The notes under the pieces: model-generated
The model's input: the letters and a program-made list of their open reading frames with translations, nothing else
What the model was told of the DNA's origin: nothing
Database searches by the model: none
Part shown: in pieces, positions 7,630-31,304 of the stretch
Layout: every line of letters begins with the position of its first letter
Position numbering within the stretch: position 1 is the first letter of the stretch
Origin: a virus
Virus record (IMG/VR): IMGVR_UViG_3300034121_000587
Coordinates: 1-31,440 of that record
Length of the DNA stretch: 31,440 bases
Reading direction: 5' to 3' (one strand)
Made by a program: the position numbers and the translations under genes

Positions 7630-9435
7630 CTATTGTTCTGATTGAATTATTTGTGGCGTTCCTAATTGTTTACGTGCATCTTGTAAAGGTGCTAATAAAT
7701 CTGTACTAATACTATTTTCTCTCATCACTTCATCTGCATATTTATTCATAATAGCCACTTGTTCTTCATATCCTTTAAATGCAAACTCTTCATCTTCTAT
7801 CAATGCTTTACGCACAAACTTTTGAATATTAGAACTAACTACATAGTCTTTTTCTGTAATACCGTTATTTTGCAAACGCATCATTTTATTATCTTCAGAA
7901 ACACCATATAAAGGGTCTAACTTGTAAACCAACATAGTGTATTTGCTTACATCAGAATCATGAGTGAAACGCTTTAAAGATATTTCCATTTCCATTGACG
8001 CTAATATAACGGGACTTAAATTTGCATCTTTAGCATGTTTATATTCTTCAATCAATAACGCATTATTTACTAAATCGTATTTTTGTGGAATACTAATTTT
8101 CGGTAGCATTTCCTCACGTGTCTTTGCATCCTGAATTAAAAAGCCATAACGCAAATTACAAGTATAGTAATCTACATTTTCACGAACGTACTTTAATAAT
8201 CCTGCAACCTTATGTGCAAAGTTATCCGTTTCATCTCTGTCCCATTGTTTAGCTATTCCGCTTTCATTTATTGGAACATTGTAAAGAAACTGCATGTTAA
8301 CCGCCTCTAATGCTTCGTATAAGTTGCTTTTAACAGCATCTCTTAATAAGTGTGCTATCTCTATACTCTTTTGAATATAGCCTGCTGGTGGTATTGGTGG
8401 TATTTGGCTATTCGGTCTATTTAAGTCTAAATTAATTACCCTGTTTTGGAAAGGTGAAACAGTTTCATAACCGCTACCGTTACAAGTTCCACACGTTGAA
8501 TTTGACATTGCCAAACCTACTTTTGTTTTGCCTGTTCCGTTGCACTTCTTACAAGTATTGGTGTTAATAGTCCATTTTTCCGAATGCATGTGTAAAACAT
8601 ATTCAGCTTGTAAATCTGAATACATACGTGCTGCTTCGTTTAAATGCGTTACCATTGAATTTATAGGTGTCTTCCAAATAATATCACCGTCTTCATTCTT
8701 ATAGAATAAACCCCTAAATCGGAAAGCCTGCAATTCATCAAAATTATGTTGAAGTCTATTTAATTCTAAATATACCTTTTGCCCTTTTGTTTCTAAAATT
8801 ACATATTCTACTATCTCGTTTCTTGTTGATAAAATATGTATATCATATTCACGCTTTCCGCTTTCATCTTTGTATTCATAATCTCTATCTGTTTTTACTA
8901 TTGTATAGTCATTTTCTTTGTAATAAATAACTTCGTCAACATTAGCAATAAACGGAATTGGTTTATAAAATTCACCTACCTGAATATTATACGACAATGG
9001 AACGATAACAACAACAGCATTTGCATCTATCATTATATTCTGTAAGCACTCATCAAACAACCATGAATCTATATTGTCATAAATAGGATATTCATTTTCT
9101 AAATATGTTTTTAATGTCTTATTTGCCGTTTCTAAAAATGCAGGCTCTTTTGTTTTATCGTAATTCACTTTCCAATCAGGTGAACGTCTTATTTTACTCA
9201 AAGAAGTAATTACCTTAGAAATCGGGTGTTCCGTTTTTGGTGCGTAGATTTTAAACCTGTAATCCATTATAGCATCAGGCTCATTCGGTCTGCGTTCTCT
9301 GATTATTTCTTCAGGAACTAATCCGTCTGCATGAGTCTTTAACGCTTTATAAAGTTTTAAAGCATCTTTTTTTATATTCCACTTTATTTTATCATCGTGG
9401 TGGTTAAATATATTTATTTGTTCTATTGGTGTCAT
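7630..9435 (-). CDS. Portal protein with an inserted DnaJ-type zinc finger (601 aa)
   Basis: A 601-residue protein placed just before the MuF-like gene, fitting the portal dodecamer subunit through which DNA enters the capsid. The N-terminus has 'DYRFKIYAPKTEHPISKVIT', and later 'LLRDAVKSNLYEALEAVNMQ' resembles the long helical crown or stem region. Residues 295-302 (CKKCNGTG) and 315-322 (CGTCNGSG) are two CxxCxGxG repeats, the zinc-binding motif of DnaJ central domains, which is unexpected in a portal. The start overlaps the preceding glycosyltransferase as ATGA. The portal call rests on length, neighbours and overall pattern. Confidence 0.75.
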   Translation of the reverse strand: MTPIEQINIFNHHDDKIKWNIKKDALKLYKALKTHADGLVPEEIIRERRPNEPDAIMDYRFKIYAPKTEHPISKVITSLSKIRRSPDWKVNYDKTKEPAFLETANKTLKTYLENEYPIYDNIDSWLFDECLQNIMIDANAVVVIVPLSYNIQVGEFYKPIPFIANVDEVIYYKENDYTIVKTDRDYEYKDESGKREYDIHILSTRNEIVEYVILETKGQKVYLELNRLQHNFDELQAFRFRGLFYKNEDGDIIWKTPINSMVTHLNEAARMYSDLQAEYVLHMHSEKWTINTNTCKKCNGTGKTKVGLAMSNSTCGTCNGSGYETVSPFQNRVINLDLNRPNSQIPPIPPAGYIQKSIEIAHLLRDAVKSNLYEALEAVNMQFLYNVPINESGIAKQWDRDETDNFAHKVAGLLKYVRENVDYYTCNLRYGFLIQDAKTREEMLPKISIPQKYDLVNNALLIEEYKHAKDANLSPVILASMEMEISLKRFTHDSDVSKYTMLVYKLDPLYGVSEDNKMMRLQNNGITEKDYVVSSNIQKFVRKALIEDEEFAFKGYEEQVAIMNKYADEVMRENSISTDLLAPLQDARKQLGTPQIIQSEQ

Positions 9436-21761: not shown

Positions 21762-23486
21762 TTAAAATATATCAAATTCTTCTTCTTTTGGTTTTCCTTT
21801 TACATACTCTATCATTTCATCTAATAGGCTTTTTGGTTTTATCCAGCTTCTATTATCCAAAATATCAACGTAATACCTTTTACTTTTTAAATCATAATCA
21901 AATTCAGCACATCCTTCTGTTCCCCAATGGTCAAACTTAATTTTTTGAACGTGCACGTAACTTTTGTTAGTTTCAAAATCTCTATATACGCAAATTCCGT
22001 TATCTGCCTTATTGTAAAAGTTTGCAGAACCTGCTATATCATACAATGTAGGTACTTCATATTTACCTGTACTTAAATTCTTTTTAATCTTAGTAGGATG
22101 TGCTACTAAAAAACAATGAACGTTATTTAATTCACAGAACGTTACAATTTCATCTAAGCATTTTCCTATATAGCTTGTTTTATCATCTGCATGTTCTATC
22201 TTATTCCATGCATCAATGACAAAATATTCAAGTCCGTAACGATGTTTGGTAAGTGCTATCTGTTTTAAAATTGAAGTCAAACTAAAATCCTTTTCAGGTT
22301 TTAAAAACCATACAAATTTATTTAAGTATTCTTTAATTTCGTTTACTTCATCTAATGTTATTCTATTTTGACCGTCCCAATGTTTTCCGCTTATCTTTCT
22401 TACTAATTTACTGAAGTGCAATTGTGTTGGTCTATTTTCAGGTGAATAAAAACAACCTCTCCAATTATGAAGTATTCGTAACTGTAAACATAGATAATCC
22501 AAAAAATCCGATTTACCATGTGAAGGTATTCCTGTAATCACAGTTAAATATCCTTTTACAATATTCAAATTAAAATTTTGTATTTCGACATTTACACCTT
22601 TGTCTAAACCATGAAAATACATATCGTCAATTTCATTACTAACATCGGATATTGTGTAAACTCCGTCTAATGGAAAGTATTGTGCTAATGATTGTACGGT
22701 TATTACTGAATTTAAGCCGTATTTAATCAAATATTCGTTTGCATCCTTGCAATCTTCTATCTCTATAAATTTACAGCGTTCAAATCCTAAACGTTCCGCT
22801 AAATCGTATTTTAGTTTCCGCCCTGCAATGTCGTTATCTAACCATAAAAGTATTTCAGTCTTATTTTCAAAGTACTCATAGCAGTTATCTAAATACTGAA
22901 GATTATTAGTATTTAAAGTTGCACCGTTTGGAACGGAAATAACGTTATCAATTCCAGATTCAATTAAACTTAACGCATCCATTTCACCTTCAACTATAAA
23001 ACAGCTTTCTGAATTTTTAATGCCGTCTAAATTGTAAAATATTAATTCAGCATCTTTGAATAGTTTAAATTGCTTTACTGCATTTCGGTATTTTATGTTA
23101 ACTAATTCGTTATCTCGGAAATAATTAAACTGTATTACATTTTCATCTTTCTGTGATTGTGGCATCCATTCTTTGCCATCCGTAATTCGAGCCTTTAATA
23201 ATGTCTTTTGCGAAATACTGCGAGTTTCAAACCATTTAACTACCTTTTCAGATAATTCTGTTTTATTTTTCCATTCAGGTTTTTTGTATTCTATCTTTTG
23301 CATCTCATTCTTTAAAAATCCACTCCAATTACAGTGATTACATCTCCACACTTTCTTATCCAAATTTACACCTAAACACTTATCTTTTGACTTTTTACGA
23401 TTGTGTGAACATTTCGGACAAGTTGTGGTTATTTCACCTGATATCTTTCCGTATGGTATCTGTATTCCAAAATCTGCGTAATTCAT
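21762..23486 (-). CDS. Primase-helicase, T7 gp4 / Twinkle type (574 aa)
   Basis: A replicative fusion enzyme. It has an N-terminal zinc ribbon (CPKC at 23-26 and CNHC at 49-52); a TOPRIM primase core with 'VEGEMDALSLIESG' (Glu166) and 'LLWLDNDIAG' (Asp217, Asp219); and a DnaB/RecA-like helicase with Walker A 'GIPSHGKS' at 319-326, Walker B region 'EYFVIDAWNKIEH' and 'CFLVAHPTKIKK' near 430. Length is usual for the family. It would prime and unwind at the phage fork. The start overlaps the DUF6291-like gene as TAATG, so the pair is coupled; that partner may be its loader. Confidence 0.93.
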   Translation of the reverse strand: MNYADFGIQIPYGKISGEITTTCPKCSHNRKKSKDKCLGVNLDKKVWRCNHCNWSGFLKNEMQKIEYKKPEWKNKTELSEKVVKWFETRSISQKTLLKARITDGKEWMPQSQKDENVIQFNYFRDNELVNIKYRNAVKQFKLFKDAELIFYNLDGIKNSESCFIVEGEMDALSLIESGIDNVISVPNGATLNTNNLQYLDNCYEYFENKTEILLWLDNDIAGRKLKYDLAERLGFERCKFIEIEDCKDANEYLIKYGLNSVITVQSLAQYFPLDGVYTISDVSNEIDDMYFHGLDKGVNVEIQNFNLNIVKGYLTVITGIPSHGKSDFLDYLCLQLRILHNWRGCFYSPENRPTQLHFSKLVRKISGKHWDGQNRITLDEVNEIKEYLNKFVWFLKPEKDFSLTSILKQIALTKHRYGLEYFVIDAWNKIEHADDKTSYIGKCLDEIVTFCELNNVHCFLVAHPTKIKKNLSTGKYEVPTLYDIAGSANFYNKADNGICVYRDFETNKSYVHVQKIKFDHWGTEGCAEFDYDLKSKRYYVDILDNRSWIKPKSLLDEMIEYVKGKPKEEEFDIF

Positions 23487-24133
23487 TATCTTACAAGTTT
23501 AGGCTTAGGTGGATTAATTGTTTTTTCTATTTCAGTTATATGCCTACGAAAACTATTTGTAACATGTTTGTAATCGTTAAAACTACTACCATTTAAAAAC
23601 CTTTGTCTAAATGATTGAATAATCTGTGGTGACTTTGCAGATAAATTTAACTTCATTAATTCAGCCTCAAATATTGCTCTTTGGTTTTTTAGATACCAAT
23701 CAACTATATTTCCTTTTTCGATTTTTCCGTTTATAATGTAGTAATCATAATCTTTATCTATAACTATAACATTATCTGTATCTATATCATTATCTATATC
23801 GGTTGATTTCGTTGAGGTATGTTGAGTATTTTCAACATCCGTTAACGTTTGTTGAAGTTCGTTAAGCTTTTTAACACGTTTTGCCTCTGCTGAAGCCTTA
23901 CCTGCATCTGAATTTTTACCAACCTTATCAATGTATTTAACTAAATCACGTTTTAATTGGTGTTTTATAGGTTCAAATCCTATCTGCGTAATTCTATCAG
24001 GCATTTCAGGATTAAGGTCGTTAACATACCTAAAAACATGTTTAATTAATCTACCAGCTTCTTCATCTGTTAATGTTTCAAACAAATGTATTTGGTCTAC
24101 ATATAGTAAAAATGATTTTTTATCCTTTGCCAT
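23486..24133 (-). CDS. DUF6291-like protein, possible replication initiator or helicase loader (215 aa)
   Basis: The ATG at 24133 is chosen over a TTG at 24166: it gives M-A-K-D-K-K-S-F-L-L-Y and reduces overlap with the upstream HNH gene to 14 bp. The N-terminus 'SFLLYVDQIHLFETLTDEEA' followed by 'GRLIKHVFRYVNDLNPEMPD' matches the DUF6291 pattern. A low-complexity Asp/Thr linker (about 110-135) separates it from a C-terminal helical part ending with 'FRRHITEIEKTINPPKPK'. Its place directly before the primase-helicase suggests an initiator or loader role. That role is inferred; the domain has no established function that I know. Confidence 0.7.
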   Translation of the reverse strand: MAKDKKSFLLYVDQIHLFETLTDEEAGRLIKHVFRYVNDLNPEMPDRITQIGFEPIKHQLKRDLVKYIDKVGKNSDAGKASAEAKRVKKLNELQQTLTDVENTQHTSTKSTDIDNDIDTDNVIVIDKDYDYYIINGKIEKGNIVDWYLKNQRAIFEAELMKLNLSAKSPQIIQSFRQRFLNGSSFNDYKHVTNSFRRHITEIEKTINPPKPKLVR

Positions 24134-24506
24134 TTGTTTTAATTTTATTAAGATAATTACTAACAAGCGTTAACTCATAAGGGTCAAATGATTTTATAGT
24201 TTCCAATATTGATTCTAACTCAAAAATGTAGTCAGTAATAACAAAATTATCATCAATAATATTTTTAATATTTCTTTTTGATTCAGTTATGTCTTTATGG
24301 CAATCAATACATAATGTTATAAAAACAGAATCATCATAATCCCATATTTCATTGCCAAAGATATATTTTTTATGATGAACATTAAGTTCTGTGTCATCAT
24401 CAAAGCAACATTGACAAGTAAAATTATCACGTTGTAAAATTTCCAAACGTTTCTTTTGCCATTTAGGATGTCGTAATTTTTCAGAATAAGAAGTGCTATT
24501 TGCCAT
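24120..24506 (-). CDS. HNH endonuclease (128 aa)
   Basis: A compact HNH nuclease. 'RDNFTCQCC' supplies the first cysteine pair, then 'LNVHHKKYIFGNEIWDYDD' carries the His-His catalytic centre and 'LITLC'-like 'FITLCIDCHKDI' gives the second cysteine pair and the final His. This is the layout of small phage HNH proteins, which often act as homing nucleases or in packaging. Here it is far from terminase and directly behind a structured RNA/terminator element (24516-24640). Ten bases separate that T-run from the ATG, so expression probably needs readthrough. It overlaps the next gene by 14 bp. Confidence 0.85.
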   Translation of the reverse strand: MANSTSYSEKLRHPKWQKKRLEILQRDNFTCQCCFDDDTELNVHHKKYIFGNEIWDYDDSVFITLCIDCHKDITESKRNIKNIIDDNFVITDYIFELESILETIKSFDPYELTLVSNYLNKIKTNGKG

Positions 24507-24515
24507 AAAAGAGAA

Positions 24516-24640
24516 TTAAAAAACCGTATCGGTTATCAGTTGGAACGGGTGTAAAGCAACCCTCTGATTTTCCGATACGGTAGTATGTTAAAAATGTATT
24601 TTCTCTCATGTGCTTTACTTTTAGGTGTTCCAATCCCTTA
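24516..24640 (-). ncRNA. Structured RNA 1: pseudoknotted leader or small RNA ending in a terminator
   Basis: Approximate transcript from the box at 24643 to the T-run at 24523-24518. Hairpin: CCGTATCGG (24580-24572) with CCGATACGG (24532-24524), 9 bp; ATCAG with CTGAT (24568-24564 / 24539-24535), 5 bp; GGGT with ACCC, 4 bp; 8-nt loop TGCTTTAC (24558-24551); then TTTTTT. Upstream GTAAAGCA (24618-24611) is the exact complement of that loop. Upstream TTGGAAC (24633-24627) is the exact complement of GTTCCAA (24546-24540), an unpaired bulge in the hairpin. The two long-range helices nest and are compatible with the hairpin, giving a pseudoknot. I recognise no known RNA family. Confidence 0.7.
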
Positions 24641-24642
24641 TG

Positions 24643-24673
24643 CAAATATAGATAAAAGTATTCTATTGTGCAA
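24643..24673 (-). promoter_or_regulatory. Promoter TTG-N20-TATATTTG for structured RNA 1
   Basis: The minus strand has TTG (24673-24671), 20 bases, then TATATTTG (24650-24643), a good match to the Bacteroidota -33/-7 pattern. It overlaps the 3' end of the 55-aa gene and points at the structured RNA and the HNH gene. Confidence 0.6.
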
Positions 24674-24830
24674 GTTTTATGTAAAAATATTTTCCGTTAT
24701 TAAATTCAACACTTCCGATTTCTATCATCATATCCAATTCAATTTTTAATGATACGTAGGTATGTGAATGAGATAGCTTTTTTAGAAGTTCATTAAATGT
24801 GTGTGGTGTTGTTAGTGTTTGTTTTATCAT
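24663..24830 (-). CDS. Small uncharacterised protein (55 aa)
   Basis: An ATG at 24830 overlaps the NinG-like stop as ATGA and opens 55 codons to TAG at 24665-24663. The product ('MIKQTLTTPHTFNELLKKLS', 'VSLKIELDMMIEIGSVEFNN') is helical then strand-rich, ending 'GKYFYIKLAQ'. The coupling and the even composition argue that it is translated. A helix followed by 'iGsvef.nGkyfyik' resembles a tiny winged-helix domain, but this is only a visual impression. Confidence 0.6.
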   Translation of the reverse strand: MIKQTLTTPHTFNELLKKLSHSHTYVSLKIELDMMIEIGSVEFNNGKYFYIKLAQ

Positions 24831-25375
24831 TGTTCTATTTGTTTACAAAGTTTCTTGTATTTTTCTGCTATCTCAATGTAGTATTCTTTGCTTATCACAC
24901 GTTTGCTTTTATCATCTGCCAAAGTTTCTAATTCATTCAATACTTTTATTCCATATCTTTTTATTATTCCTTTTCGGTATTCAATTAGATTGCCTGATTT
25001 ATGTTGGTTACAAAAAACGCACTGGCCTGAACAATTAAACTCGTTAAATAATAGTTGAGGTGTTCCACTTGCTGAATAATAATGACCAGCATCAAACTTT
25101 GTAATTGAACTTAATTTAAAATCACACGAAATACAACTTTTACCGACATCTCTAAGCCTTATAAATCTTTGAAACCAATAACGTGCTTCTTTTCGATAAT
25201 CAGTAACCGTTTTTAGCTTTTCCTTAATTATTGACTTTTCCTTTTTCCACTTTTTCTCACGTTCTTTTTGTACAATTTCTTTTGCTTTTTTAACGGTGCA
25301 ATCGAAACACAAATTTTGTATAGATGTGTATTGCTTAAACTCTAATTTGCATTTCTTACACTTCAAAACGGACAT
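24827..25375 (-). CDS. ninG: NinG-like recombination protein (182 aa)
   Basis: A match to the lambda NinG (Rap) family. It has an N-terminal zinc-ribbon-like 'CKKCKLEFKQY' and 'NLCFDC', a Lys/Glu-rich helix, 'WFQRFIRLRDVGKSCISC', then 'FDAGHYYSASGTPQLLFNEF' and 'CSGQCVFCNQHKSGN', in which the GHY and CxxCN elements are family marks. Rap acts on branched recombination intermediates, which fits the nearby ERF and SSB-like genes. Length is near the usual 200 residues. Its start lies 9 bp past an orphan ribbon-helix-helix-like fragment. Confidence 0.88.
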   Translation of the reverse strand: MSVLKCKKCKLEFKQYTSIQNLCFDCTVKKAKEIVQKEREKKWKKEKSIIKEKLKTVTDYRKEARYWFQRFIRLRDVGKSCISCDFKLSSITKFDAGHYYSASGTPQLLFNEFNCSGQCVFCNQHKSGNLIEYRKGIIKRYGIKVLNELETLADDKSKRVISKEYYIEIAEKYKKLCKQIEQ

Positions 25376-25533
25376 TTTATTTTATCAATTCTTTTATTTT
25401 CGCTTTCTATTATTTTAGGCATATCACGTTCTATTTTTTCTCTTATAGCATTTCTAATAAACGCTGTAGGCTTTATTCTAAGCGTTTTTAATTGCTTTAA
25501 AAGAATGTTAAATATGAATCCATTTTTTGTTAT
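25363..25533 (-). pseudogene. C-terminal remnant of a ribbon-helix-helix-like gene
   Basis: Between the HNH stop (25508) and the NinG-like start, a frame without any ATG, GTG or TTG near its beginning reads 'LLKQLKTLRIKPTAFIRNAI' then 'REKIERDMPKIIESENKR' and ends at TGA 25365-25363. The phrase 'L..L.IKPTAFIR.AI..K' resembles the helical half of small Arc/CopG-like or similar phage proteins. The frame is open back to 25533, inside the HNH 3' end, but has no proper start. The likely history is that insertion of the HNH gene removed its N-terminus. Use of a rare start codon cannot be excluded. Confidence 0.45.
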
Positions 25534-26035
25534 TTATAATATCACAAATAAGACAATTACTCACGTTATAAATAATAGATAGTTTTCGTTGAGATAAATT
25601 TTCTGAATTTTTTCTAATTTCTAAAACCTGTTTTTCTGTTAATTTACATCTGCCGTTGTTTGTTCCATTAGCATTCATAAGTCCTATTTTGTAAGAATGA
25701 ATAGTATTTTCAGAATAAGTACACCACTCTAAATTTTTAGTAATATTATCTGTTTTTATTCCATTTATATGATTTATGATTGGCTTGTTTTTATAGTTTG
25801 GTATAAAAGCCAATGCTACCAACCTGTGTATTTTTATTCTTTTTGCTAACCTATTTTTACTTAAATCAACACTTAAGTAACCATAAGAATCTTTTATTGG
25901 TTTTAATATACATTCATTAATGGTTCTTTTAATATTAATCTTTATTTCTACAGTTCTTTTAACTGATTTTACATTACCAAAATTGCTAACTTGATACAAC
26001 CCTTCATACCCTAAAATATCTTTATATATTTCCAT
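25508..26035 (-). CDS. NUMOD4-HNH homing endonuclease, copy A (175 aa)
   Basis: The N-terminus 'MEIYKDILGYEGLYQVSNFG' is the NUMOD4 DNA-binding motif (w..i.gyeG.YqvSnlG.vks). The HNH_3-type core follows: 'KIHRLVALAFIPN', 'INHINGIKTDNITKNLEWCT' and 'ENTIHSYKIG'. A C-terminal HTH-like part with 'LTEKQVLEIRKNSENLSQRK' ends with 'NNKKWIHI'. This is a free-standing phage homing nuclease. It is clearly paralogous to the gene at 30766-31269. Structured RNA 2 lies directly before its ATG, and a disrupted gene fragment lies directly after it. Confidence 0.92.
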   Translation of the reverse strand: MEIYKDILGYEGLYQVSNFGNVKSVKRTVEIKINIKRTINECILKPIKDSYGYLSVDLSKNRLAKRIKIHRLVALAFIPNYKNKPIINHINGIKTDNITKNLEWCTYSENTIHSYKIGLMNANGTNNGRCKLTEKQVLEIRKNSENLSQRKLSIIYNVSNCLICDIINNKKWIHI

Positions 26036-30765: not shown

Positions 30766-31269
30766 CTAAATATGATTCCATCTTTTTTTATTCTTAATAC
30801 GGTATATTGTAGAAATATTTACATTGTATTTTTTGGCTAAATCATTAGAACTTAATTTATTTATATTAGTTCTTATAAATTCAATATCAATATTTTTCAA
30901 TTTAGAAGTTCCGTGATTTTCACCTTTTGCACCACTTGGTTTATTTAAACCATATACCCACGAATGCTTTATATTTTCTTTTGGAGTACACCATTCTAAA
31001 TTCTCAATTCTGTTATCTGTTTTAATACCGTTTATGTGATTTACCTGCGGTTTATTTTGTTCATTTTTAATAAACGTTTCAGCAACTAATCTATGTATTG
31101 CGTATGTTTTTACGCTTTTATTATGGTATAAATTAACCAAAAAATATCCTCGTGAATTTATTTTAGGTTTCAAAATAAGACCTGAGTTTGCTCTTATAGA
31201 ATTAATATTACCTAAATTGCTAACTTGATACCTACCATTAAATCCTATTATGTTTTTCCAAATTTCCAT
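30766..31269 (-). CDS. NUMOD4-HNH homing endonuclease, copy B (167 aa)
   Basis: The ATG at 31269 (M-E-I-W-K-N-I-I-G-F-N-G) is chosen by alignment with the paralogue at 25508-26035 and because it follows the -7 box. The NUMOD4 motif 'WKNIIGFNGRYQVSNLGNIN' leads; the HNH core is 'YAIHRLVAETFIKNE', 'VNHINGIKTDNRIENLEWCT' and 'ENIKHSWVYG'; the C-terminal HTH-like part has 'LAKKYNVNISTIYRIKNKKR'. Unlike the other two HNH genes, it is not preceded by a structured RNA. It begins the first transcription unit in the window and its ATG lies 4 bp after the promoter box. Confidence 0.9.
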   Translation of the reverse strand: MEIWKNIIGFNGRYQVSNLGNINSIRANSGLILKPKINSRGYFLVNLYHNKSVKTYAIHRLVAETFIKNEQNKPQVNHINGIKTDNRIENLEWCTPKENIKHSWVYGLNKPSGAKGENHGTSKLKNIDIEFIRTNINKLSSNDLAKKYNVNISTIYRIKNKKRWNHI

Positions 31270-31273
31270 ACCA

Positions 31274-31304
31274 CAAAGATAAATCAAACTTTTGATATAT
31301 GCAA
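31274..31304 (-). promoter_or_regulatory. Promoter TTG-N20-TATCTTTG of the leftward early operon
   Basis: TTG (31304-31302), 20 bases, TATCTTTG (31281-31274): the same spacing as the RNA 1 promoter. The ATG at 31269 follows after four bases, so the mRNA may be leaderless. The palindrome centre is 58.5 bp from the box centre. Confidence 0.65.

Follow-up and report, generated by a model that had tools for sequence, protein, structure and literature searches.

RESULTS

A structured leader RNA upstream of the replication genes

The replication genes of a Bacteroidota-type phage are preceded by an RNA element in which the apical loop of an intrinsic terminator is complementary to a segment near the 5′-end of the same leader. 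Related phages keep this pairing while the letters differ, and on this comparative ground we conclude that the element is a functional structured RNA; our reading, held with roughly even confidence, is that it controls the replication operon in cis as a transcription attenuator. The DNA analysed, hereafter the window, is the whole stretch of 31,440 nt from a viral record (IMG/VR IMGVR_UViG_3300034121_000587). Every piece of the RNA described in an earlier note on this DNA was found when the minus strand was read directly from 24673 to 24518:

24643..24673, minus strand: promoter-like site of Bacteroidota type, with TTG at 24671-24673, a 20-nt spacer and TATATTTG at 24643-24650 (read directly)
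24627..24633, minus strand: segment a, TTGGAAC, exact complement of the 3′ bulge a′
24611..24618, minus strand: segment b, GTAAAGCA, exact complement of the apical loop b′; a corresponding pairing covaries across the 76 counted leaders
24523..24581, minus strand: terminator hairpin, made of P2, the ATCAG/CTGAT helix and P3; P2 and P3 covary in relatives
24572-24581 / 24523-24532, minus strand: outer stem P2, ACCGTATCGG/CCGATACGGT, 10 bp
24564-24568 / 24535-24539, minus strand: middle helix ATCAG/CTGAT, 5 bp
24559-24562 / 24547-24550, minus strand: P3, GGGT/ACCC, 4 bp
24551..24558, minus strand: apical loop b′, TGCTTTAC, 8 nt, exact complement of b
24540..24546, minus strand: 3′ bulge a′, GTTCCAA, 7 nt, exact complement of a
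24518..24523, minus strand: terminator T-run, T6, 11 nt 5′ of the HNH start codon
24515..24650, minus strand: full extent of the element in the match to covariance model R1, 21.6 bits, E 0.011

From 5′ to 3′ the hairpin reads ACCGTATCGG aaa ATCAG ag GGGT TGCTTTAC ACCC GTTCCAA CTGAT aa CCGATACGGT TTTTT. The pseudoknotted RNA that the earlier note saw at this terminator was borne out, both by the exact complementarity of loop and bulge to b and a and by the relatives; of its hairpin of 9 + 5 + 4 pairs with a T-run, the two inner helices and the T-run were recovered, and the outer stem has 10 bp, not 9. The element is flanked by a 55-aa open reading frame (ORF) and the HNH gene, and its own letters recur only in near-identical contigs.

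Chance controls and an independent covariance model

We determined how often such an arrangement would arise by chance. With the hairpin held fixed and exact filling of loop and bulge not required, 15 nested Watson–Crick pairs occurred in 0.06% of 20,000 dinucleotide-shuffled leaders, in agreement with the view that the matches are very unlikely by chance, for which the relatives carry the main support. Between 24300 and 24900 one terminator-like site was found against 0.1 expected. Early descriptor scans gave many false positives in AT-rich DNA and were not used as proof: a first descriptor, applied to 295 promoter sites, scored the window element at 31.4 when the best shuffled score was 31.2, and a less strict one returned 4 hits in the window where shuffles predict 4. 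Taken as a single copy, the window element is only moderately convincing, suggestive and no more. The demonstration that it is a functional RNA comes instead from the relatives and from a covariance model built without the window sequence. This model, R1, was derived from 18 other phage leaders (alignment A2, pseudoknot not included), and its sole match in the window was 24515-24650 on the minus strand; the custom model that had been proposed as a check in the earlier note thus finds the element.

Shuffling gave p 0.004 for a:a′ in the window, 0.009 in L011 and 0.20 in L012, the closest primase relatives (64 and 61%, respectively), so that a second pseudoknot appears likely in the window and L011 and is uncertain in L012. 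We propose that in leaders of this kind a:a′, b:b′ and the hairpin may form simultaneously. In the pseudoknot-free minimum-energy fold of 24511-24637 (minus strand), the 5′-end GGGAUUGGAA pairs with the U-run and the bases just before the HNH start, a predicted pairing that could possibly be specific to read-through transcripts.

Relatives share the plan with different letters

L011 and L012 carry the same plan in the same slot with other letters. In L011, a is TCAAAT against a′ ATTTGA, and b is ACCGCCAA against b′ TTGGCGGT; in L012, b is CTGAAAC against b′ GTTTCAG, and a is ATTAACC against a′ GGTTGGT, G-U included. We then surveyed the regions 5′ of DUF6291 genes, in NinG- and DUF6291-anchored viral loci; more than 560 loci with DUF6291 exist. 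In 76 of the 88 distinct upstream regions, the interior of a terminator hairpin pairs over 6–9 bp with an upstream segment. The family plan is a promoter-like box followed by a terminator whose apical loop pairs upstream, giving an RNA of ∼100–130 nt; since most leaders present b in a 5′ hairpin loop, the contact is usually one between two kissing hairpin loops. The next start codon follows the terminator stem within 9–27 nt in 75 of the 76 leaders.

Isolates with the element include Cellulophaga phages phi19:3 and phi13:2, Flavobacterium phages 11b, elemoA and lillamy, Olleya phage Harreka_1 and Tenacibaculum phage JQ. When R1 was run over whole isolate genomes, the replication site ranked high (lillamy, E 8e-4; phi19:3, E 0.007; 11b, E 0.02). 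Phage phi19:3 has a second copy (L259, 23510-23622, plus strand; E 0.005) close before a YopX-domain gene, with loop letters CCTTCAC/GTGAAGG that differ from those of the first copy. Since the two copies differ in these letters, the pairing is within one molecule, and the second, standing before a YopX-domain gene, shows that replication genes are not the only setting of the element. The same architecture stands 5′ of different genes, namely HNH, DUF6291, 53- and 71-aa ORFs and the YopX-domain gene. Two further candidates were seen, one after NinG (L076, 3545-3655; b pairing GCATAGGAAA/TTTTCCTATGC) and one in another gene context (L036, 10262-10382; GCTCAT/ATGAGC).

A matching element was also found in one of three sampled bacterial genomes with DUF6291 (L254, 173-285; G294 contig 87), ∼500 nt 5′ of the DUF6291 gene with another ORF in between; this contig is probably a prophage or phage contig. 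By inspection, no element lies directly upstream of DUF6291 in the gammaproteobacterial phages Shewanella ZP9 and Vibrio 1.240.O, nor directly upstream in Riemerella phage RAP44. A covariance search of 395 Bacteroidota genomes gave no match, which, with strict filters and no positive control, is weak evidence of absence.

Covariation and structural types

Alignment A2 comprises 18 distinct leaders of the majority type, with a structure of P1, kissing helix, P2 and P3 (28 pairs). Paired cells amounted to 96.4%, compared with 69.5 ± 1.5% after shuffling, which does not remove relatedness, and at most 47.8% after sliding, which does keep it. Both sides had changed at 22 of the 28 pairs; double-changed cells numbered 133 (45.6 in shuffled alignments), and the covariation score was 0.744 (0.230 shuffled). 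Compensatory changes in related phages, on which the earlier note had made its reading depend, were present in the kissing helix itself, in which 99.3% of cells pair and 6 of the 8 pairs have double changes. Moreover, when leaders were swapped among 26 representatives with unlike loops, a pairing score of at least 7 was reached in 88% of own and 6.8% of swapped leaders (Mann–Whitney p 1.5e-15, which is indicative as the representatives are not fully independent).

Three structural types were distinguished. The majority K type consists of the P1 hairpin with loop b, an AU-rich linker, P2, a UGAA/GGAU tandem-GA internal loop, P3 and loop b′. The M type (for the most part the GGTAGGA group with its variants) has by inspection a short P1, and its P2 and P3 are separated by an AGUA/GAA internal loop that resembles loop E; in alignment A3 (e.g. 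L182, L189 and L213) this AGUA/GAA follows the bacterial loop-E/sarcin–ricin pattern. The W type (window, L011 and L012) has no P1, and a pairs with the 3′ bulge a′ instead. When the window was fitted to R1, all five P1 pairs failed; it shares with the family the −7 box, the upstream b, b′ in the terminator apical loop, the T-run and a gene start close behind. Exact filling of loop and bulge is a minority plan, seen in the window, in L011 and less clearly in L012.

The promoter-like box

The TATATTTG-like −7 box is near-invariant and keeps a steady position before the leader in 33 dissimilar relatives, an apparent conservation that is favoured by its use as the anchor of their alignment. The base before the box is T, and ∼40 nt upstream the sequence is rich in A. 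Of 73 leaders, 15 had TTG at a spacing of 16–24 nt, the background being 12%; TTG-N20 occurs in the window, L011 and L012. Judged by these leaders, the −33 TTG is not a family feature. A promoter at the TATATTTG box is probable from its position and conservation; since the −33 TTG is not conserved, strong initiation here is uncertain. Thus, of the element's ‘own promoter’ claimed in the earlier note, the −7 box has held up and the −33 element has not.

The HNH gene and the open reading frame across the hairpin

The window has the gene set of a Bacteroidota-type phage (NinG, HNH, DUF6291, primase/helicase and terminase, all on the minus strand), and relatives of its primase are mostly from Flavobacterium and Cellulophaga phages. 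The genes and the open frame next to the element are as follows:

24120..24506, minus strand: HNH endonuclease gene, 128 aa, first gene past the terminator, rare in other phages
23486..24166, minus strand: DUF6291 replication gene, primosomal-like (PF19808, E 8e-20)
21762..23486, minus strand: primase/helicase gene, Toprim and DnaB_C (domain matches)
24496..24609, minus strand: 37-codon open frame, ATG at 24609 and stop at 24496-24498, crossing the hairpin, the stop overlapping the HNH start

A nuclease-associated RNA was among the options named in the earlier note, and the RNA does stand directly 5′ of an HNH gene in the window phage. We regard a role as guide or antitoxin of the HNH protein as extremely improbable. 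Relatives have the RNA without HNH, their slot being occupied by DUF6291 or by 53-, 71- or 49-aa ORFs, while L003, the closest foreign HNH homologue, is without the element; the constant downstream neighbours among relatives are the DUF6291 gene and primase/helicase. In Pfam comparison the HNH protein is small, lacks RuvC and has no assigned family. Compared with OMEGA/HEARO RNAs (IscB, TnpB), there is only this 128-aa HNH protein with no Pfam effector domain, and neither HEARO nor any other Rfam model matched. Type III toxin–antitoxin RNA (ToxI) is likewise a pseudoknot RNA with a terminator followed by a nuclease gene; unlike it, the element is without tandem repeats, none being present in 24000-25000, and its downstream gene is neither conserved nor of ToxN type, HNH following here and DUF6291 or others in relatives. 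The partnership with HNH was therefore rejected, HNH not being conserved beside the element, and by this comparison the HNH gene is an incidental neighbour, not a conserved partner. In the same window, the ORF at 25508-26035 (minus strand; NUMOD4/HNH_3) and a second of similar look at 30766-31287 (minus strand) are likely free-standing homing endonucleases. A large structural-region ORF at 7630-9435 (minus strand) has a DnaJ-type CXXCXGXG zinc motif, unusual in a phage structural protein.

In another reading, the region would code for a small protein, of 37 aa in the window, from a frame that the earlier note did not mention, and the hairpin would be incidental. In the window, L011, phi19:3 and phi13:2, an open frame does extend to, or overlap, the start codon that follows, and two T-run indels between phi19:3 (L169) and phi13:2 (L170) cancel, leaving a 31-codon frame open in both. 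On the other hand, ATG frames run through in only 12 of 73 leaders, from differing start positions, and the covariation is at the RNA level. With the 37-aa product lacking relatives and with no conserved ATG-initiated frame, this reading was rejected as very improbable, and the 37-codon frame is most likely incidental. A weak similarity at the protein level to Stenotrophomonas phage Salva (E 0.7) falls inside a larger unrelated protein and was taken as chance.

DISCUSSION

Proposed attenuation of the replication operon

In the 76 leaders, an intrinsic terminator stands between the promoter-like box and the start codon. The downstream gene opens the replication cluster, as DUF6291 itself or as a small ORF or HNH followed by DUF6291, with helicase/primase after it. 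A gene start 9–27 nt past the stem leaves too little room for another promoter, and hence the replication mRNA must pass the terminator, whether it begins at the −7 box or further upstream. A cis-acting attenuator is for this reason the most economical reading. We suppose that transcription starts just past the TATATTTG box, and that the first ∼40 nt carry b, in the P1 loop in most phages and flanked by a in the window type. Upon emergence of the terminator hairpin, the apical loop b′ would kiss b, joined in the window type by pairing of a with the 3′ bulge. The compact RNA would end at the T-run, where most transcripts would stop at a length of ∼100–130 nt. Read-through into the replication operon would be set by the kissing state, which some phage or host factor would sense or shift.

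Classical attenuators use overlapping alternative structures. Against attenuation, the loop and stem pairings here are compatible, b:b′ does not overlap P2 and all helices can coexist, and no conserved mutually exclusive antiterminator was seen. A conserved linker, AAGGAATTATTA, occupies columns 41–60 of A2. Pairing of its AAGG with CCTT of the P2 5′ arm, visible as a weak alternative in many K-type leaders, might possibly serve as a weak antiterminator.

The coexistence of all helices also suits a trans-acting phage small RNA, for which the terminated ∼100–130-nt RNA would be the product, its kissing fold serving to stabilize it or to offer it to a protein of host or phage (RNAP, a nuclease or a defence protein being candidates), and its placement would reflect early expression. 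The fold is compact with its own −7 box and terminator, and the conserved AGUA/GAA (M type) and UGAA/GGAU (K type) motifs look like a fixed three-dimensional shape. An independent RNA gene, however, needs no gene start at such a short and nearly constant distance, the second phi19:3 copy lies likewise close before a gene, and the loop sequences vary freely, leaving no conserved antisense target. We therefore hold this possibility, the main alternative to attenuation, as rather doubtful. Attenuator and small RNA had both been named in the earlier note; of the two, the position favours the attenuator.

A constitutive terminator insulating the replication genes from upstream transcription, with the 5′ pairing stabilizing the hairpin or protecting the 5′-end, would explain why a terminator is present in nearly all leaders and agrees with upstream genes that usually run in the same direction. 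Simple terminators, though, need no conserved 5′ partner, −7 box or covarying loops, and the downstream gene would be left without a promoter, so we consider this reading improbable.

Comparison with known systems

Among known systems, phage P4 comes close: its CI RNA base-pairs with sequences in the leader, and transcription ends ahead of the replication genes (PMC4825925). Like the seqA–seqC leader there, the element is an untranslated phage leader 5′ of replication genes with RNA–RNA pairing and premature termination; P4 differs in having a processed antisense RNA with separate targets, whereas here both partners are in one ∼100–130-nt RNA and one of them is the terminator loop (PMC4825925). 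No sequence or model match links the two. The gene slot and logic, as in P4 (PMC4825925), would fit a copy-number or superinfection-immunity RNA of the P4 CI or P1 c4 style, pairing with the nascent leaders of other genomes and promoting termination, and the self-complementary b/b′ could act between molecules. Intramolecular pairing should nevertheless outcompete this; only in-cis complementarity was seen, with neither a separate processed antisense RNA nor a second target copy, and no Rfam model, P1 c4 (RF01695) included, matched the window or relatives. Such a role is in our judgement unlikely.

Several other systems resemble the proposed attenuator in part. In the late leader pR′–tR′ of phage lambda (6S RNA), Q protein controls at a DNA site near the promoter. 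The shared features are a promoter, a short terminated leader RNA and an operon reached by read-through only; the lambda leader is without a leader–terminator kissing fold. The rep-gene attenuators of pT181 and pIP501 employ a kissing antisense RNA from the opposite strand, and have kissing loops and a terminator before a replication gene, whereas here the loop kisses the 5′-end of its own RNA. Some riboswitches combine loop–loop contacts with expression-platform terminators, hence also a leader with tertiary loop–loop pairing and an intrinsic terminator before the gene; in the present element, by contrast, no conserved ligand pocket was seen, the kissing partner is the terminator loop and Rfam gave no match. 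The put antitermination RNAs of HK022 are likewise structured RNAs near a phage promoter that affect termination; they are located 5′ of the terminators they override and separate from them, but in our case the terminator belongs to the fold.

No Rfam 15 family matched the window at the gathering threshold, and in 15 relatives nothing matched at the element, only tRNA and DUF805b being found elsewhere; a local permissive Rfam scan of the window element returned only chance matches on the opposite strand. DUF805b RNA (RF02914) lies at L173 1177-1211 in Flavobacterium phage lillamy9-5, ∼1.3 kb upstream of the element. The absence of a known family, as the earlier note had it, was in this way confirmed, and open-licence PMC full text held no description of such an RNA. 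The element is a new RNA family of a kind already known, a terminator-containing leader with loop–loop pairing; what is new, as far as could be found in that literature, is that the terminator loop kisses the 5′-end of the transcript to which it belongs.

Significance

The family is an RNA with unusually strong covariation and no Rfam 15 match at a switch point for phage DNA replication, and it is common among phages whose hosts (Flavobacterium-like bacteria) belong to a class abundant in the sea, fresh water and soil. Because the kissing partner is the terminator loop, whether a tertiary contact can govern termination efficiency is directly testable in culturable phages. More tentatively, and somewhat short of an even chance, these leaders may represent a general regulatory class in Bacteroidota phages, in which a terminator is gated by its kissing contact with the 5′-end of the RNA that it ends. 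As we read it, such a class would head the replication operon and in some phages further operons, and the tertiary contact would answer a phage or host factor and set gene timing, a view that we hold with the same reserve. If this is true, phage gene timing would be set by an RNA tertiary contact, in a phylum with little-studied phage regulation.
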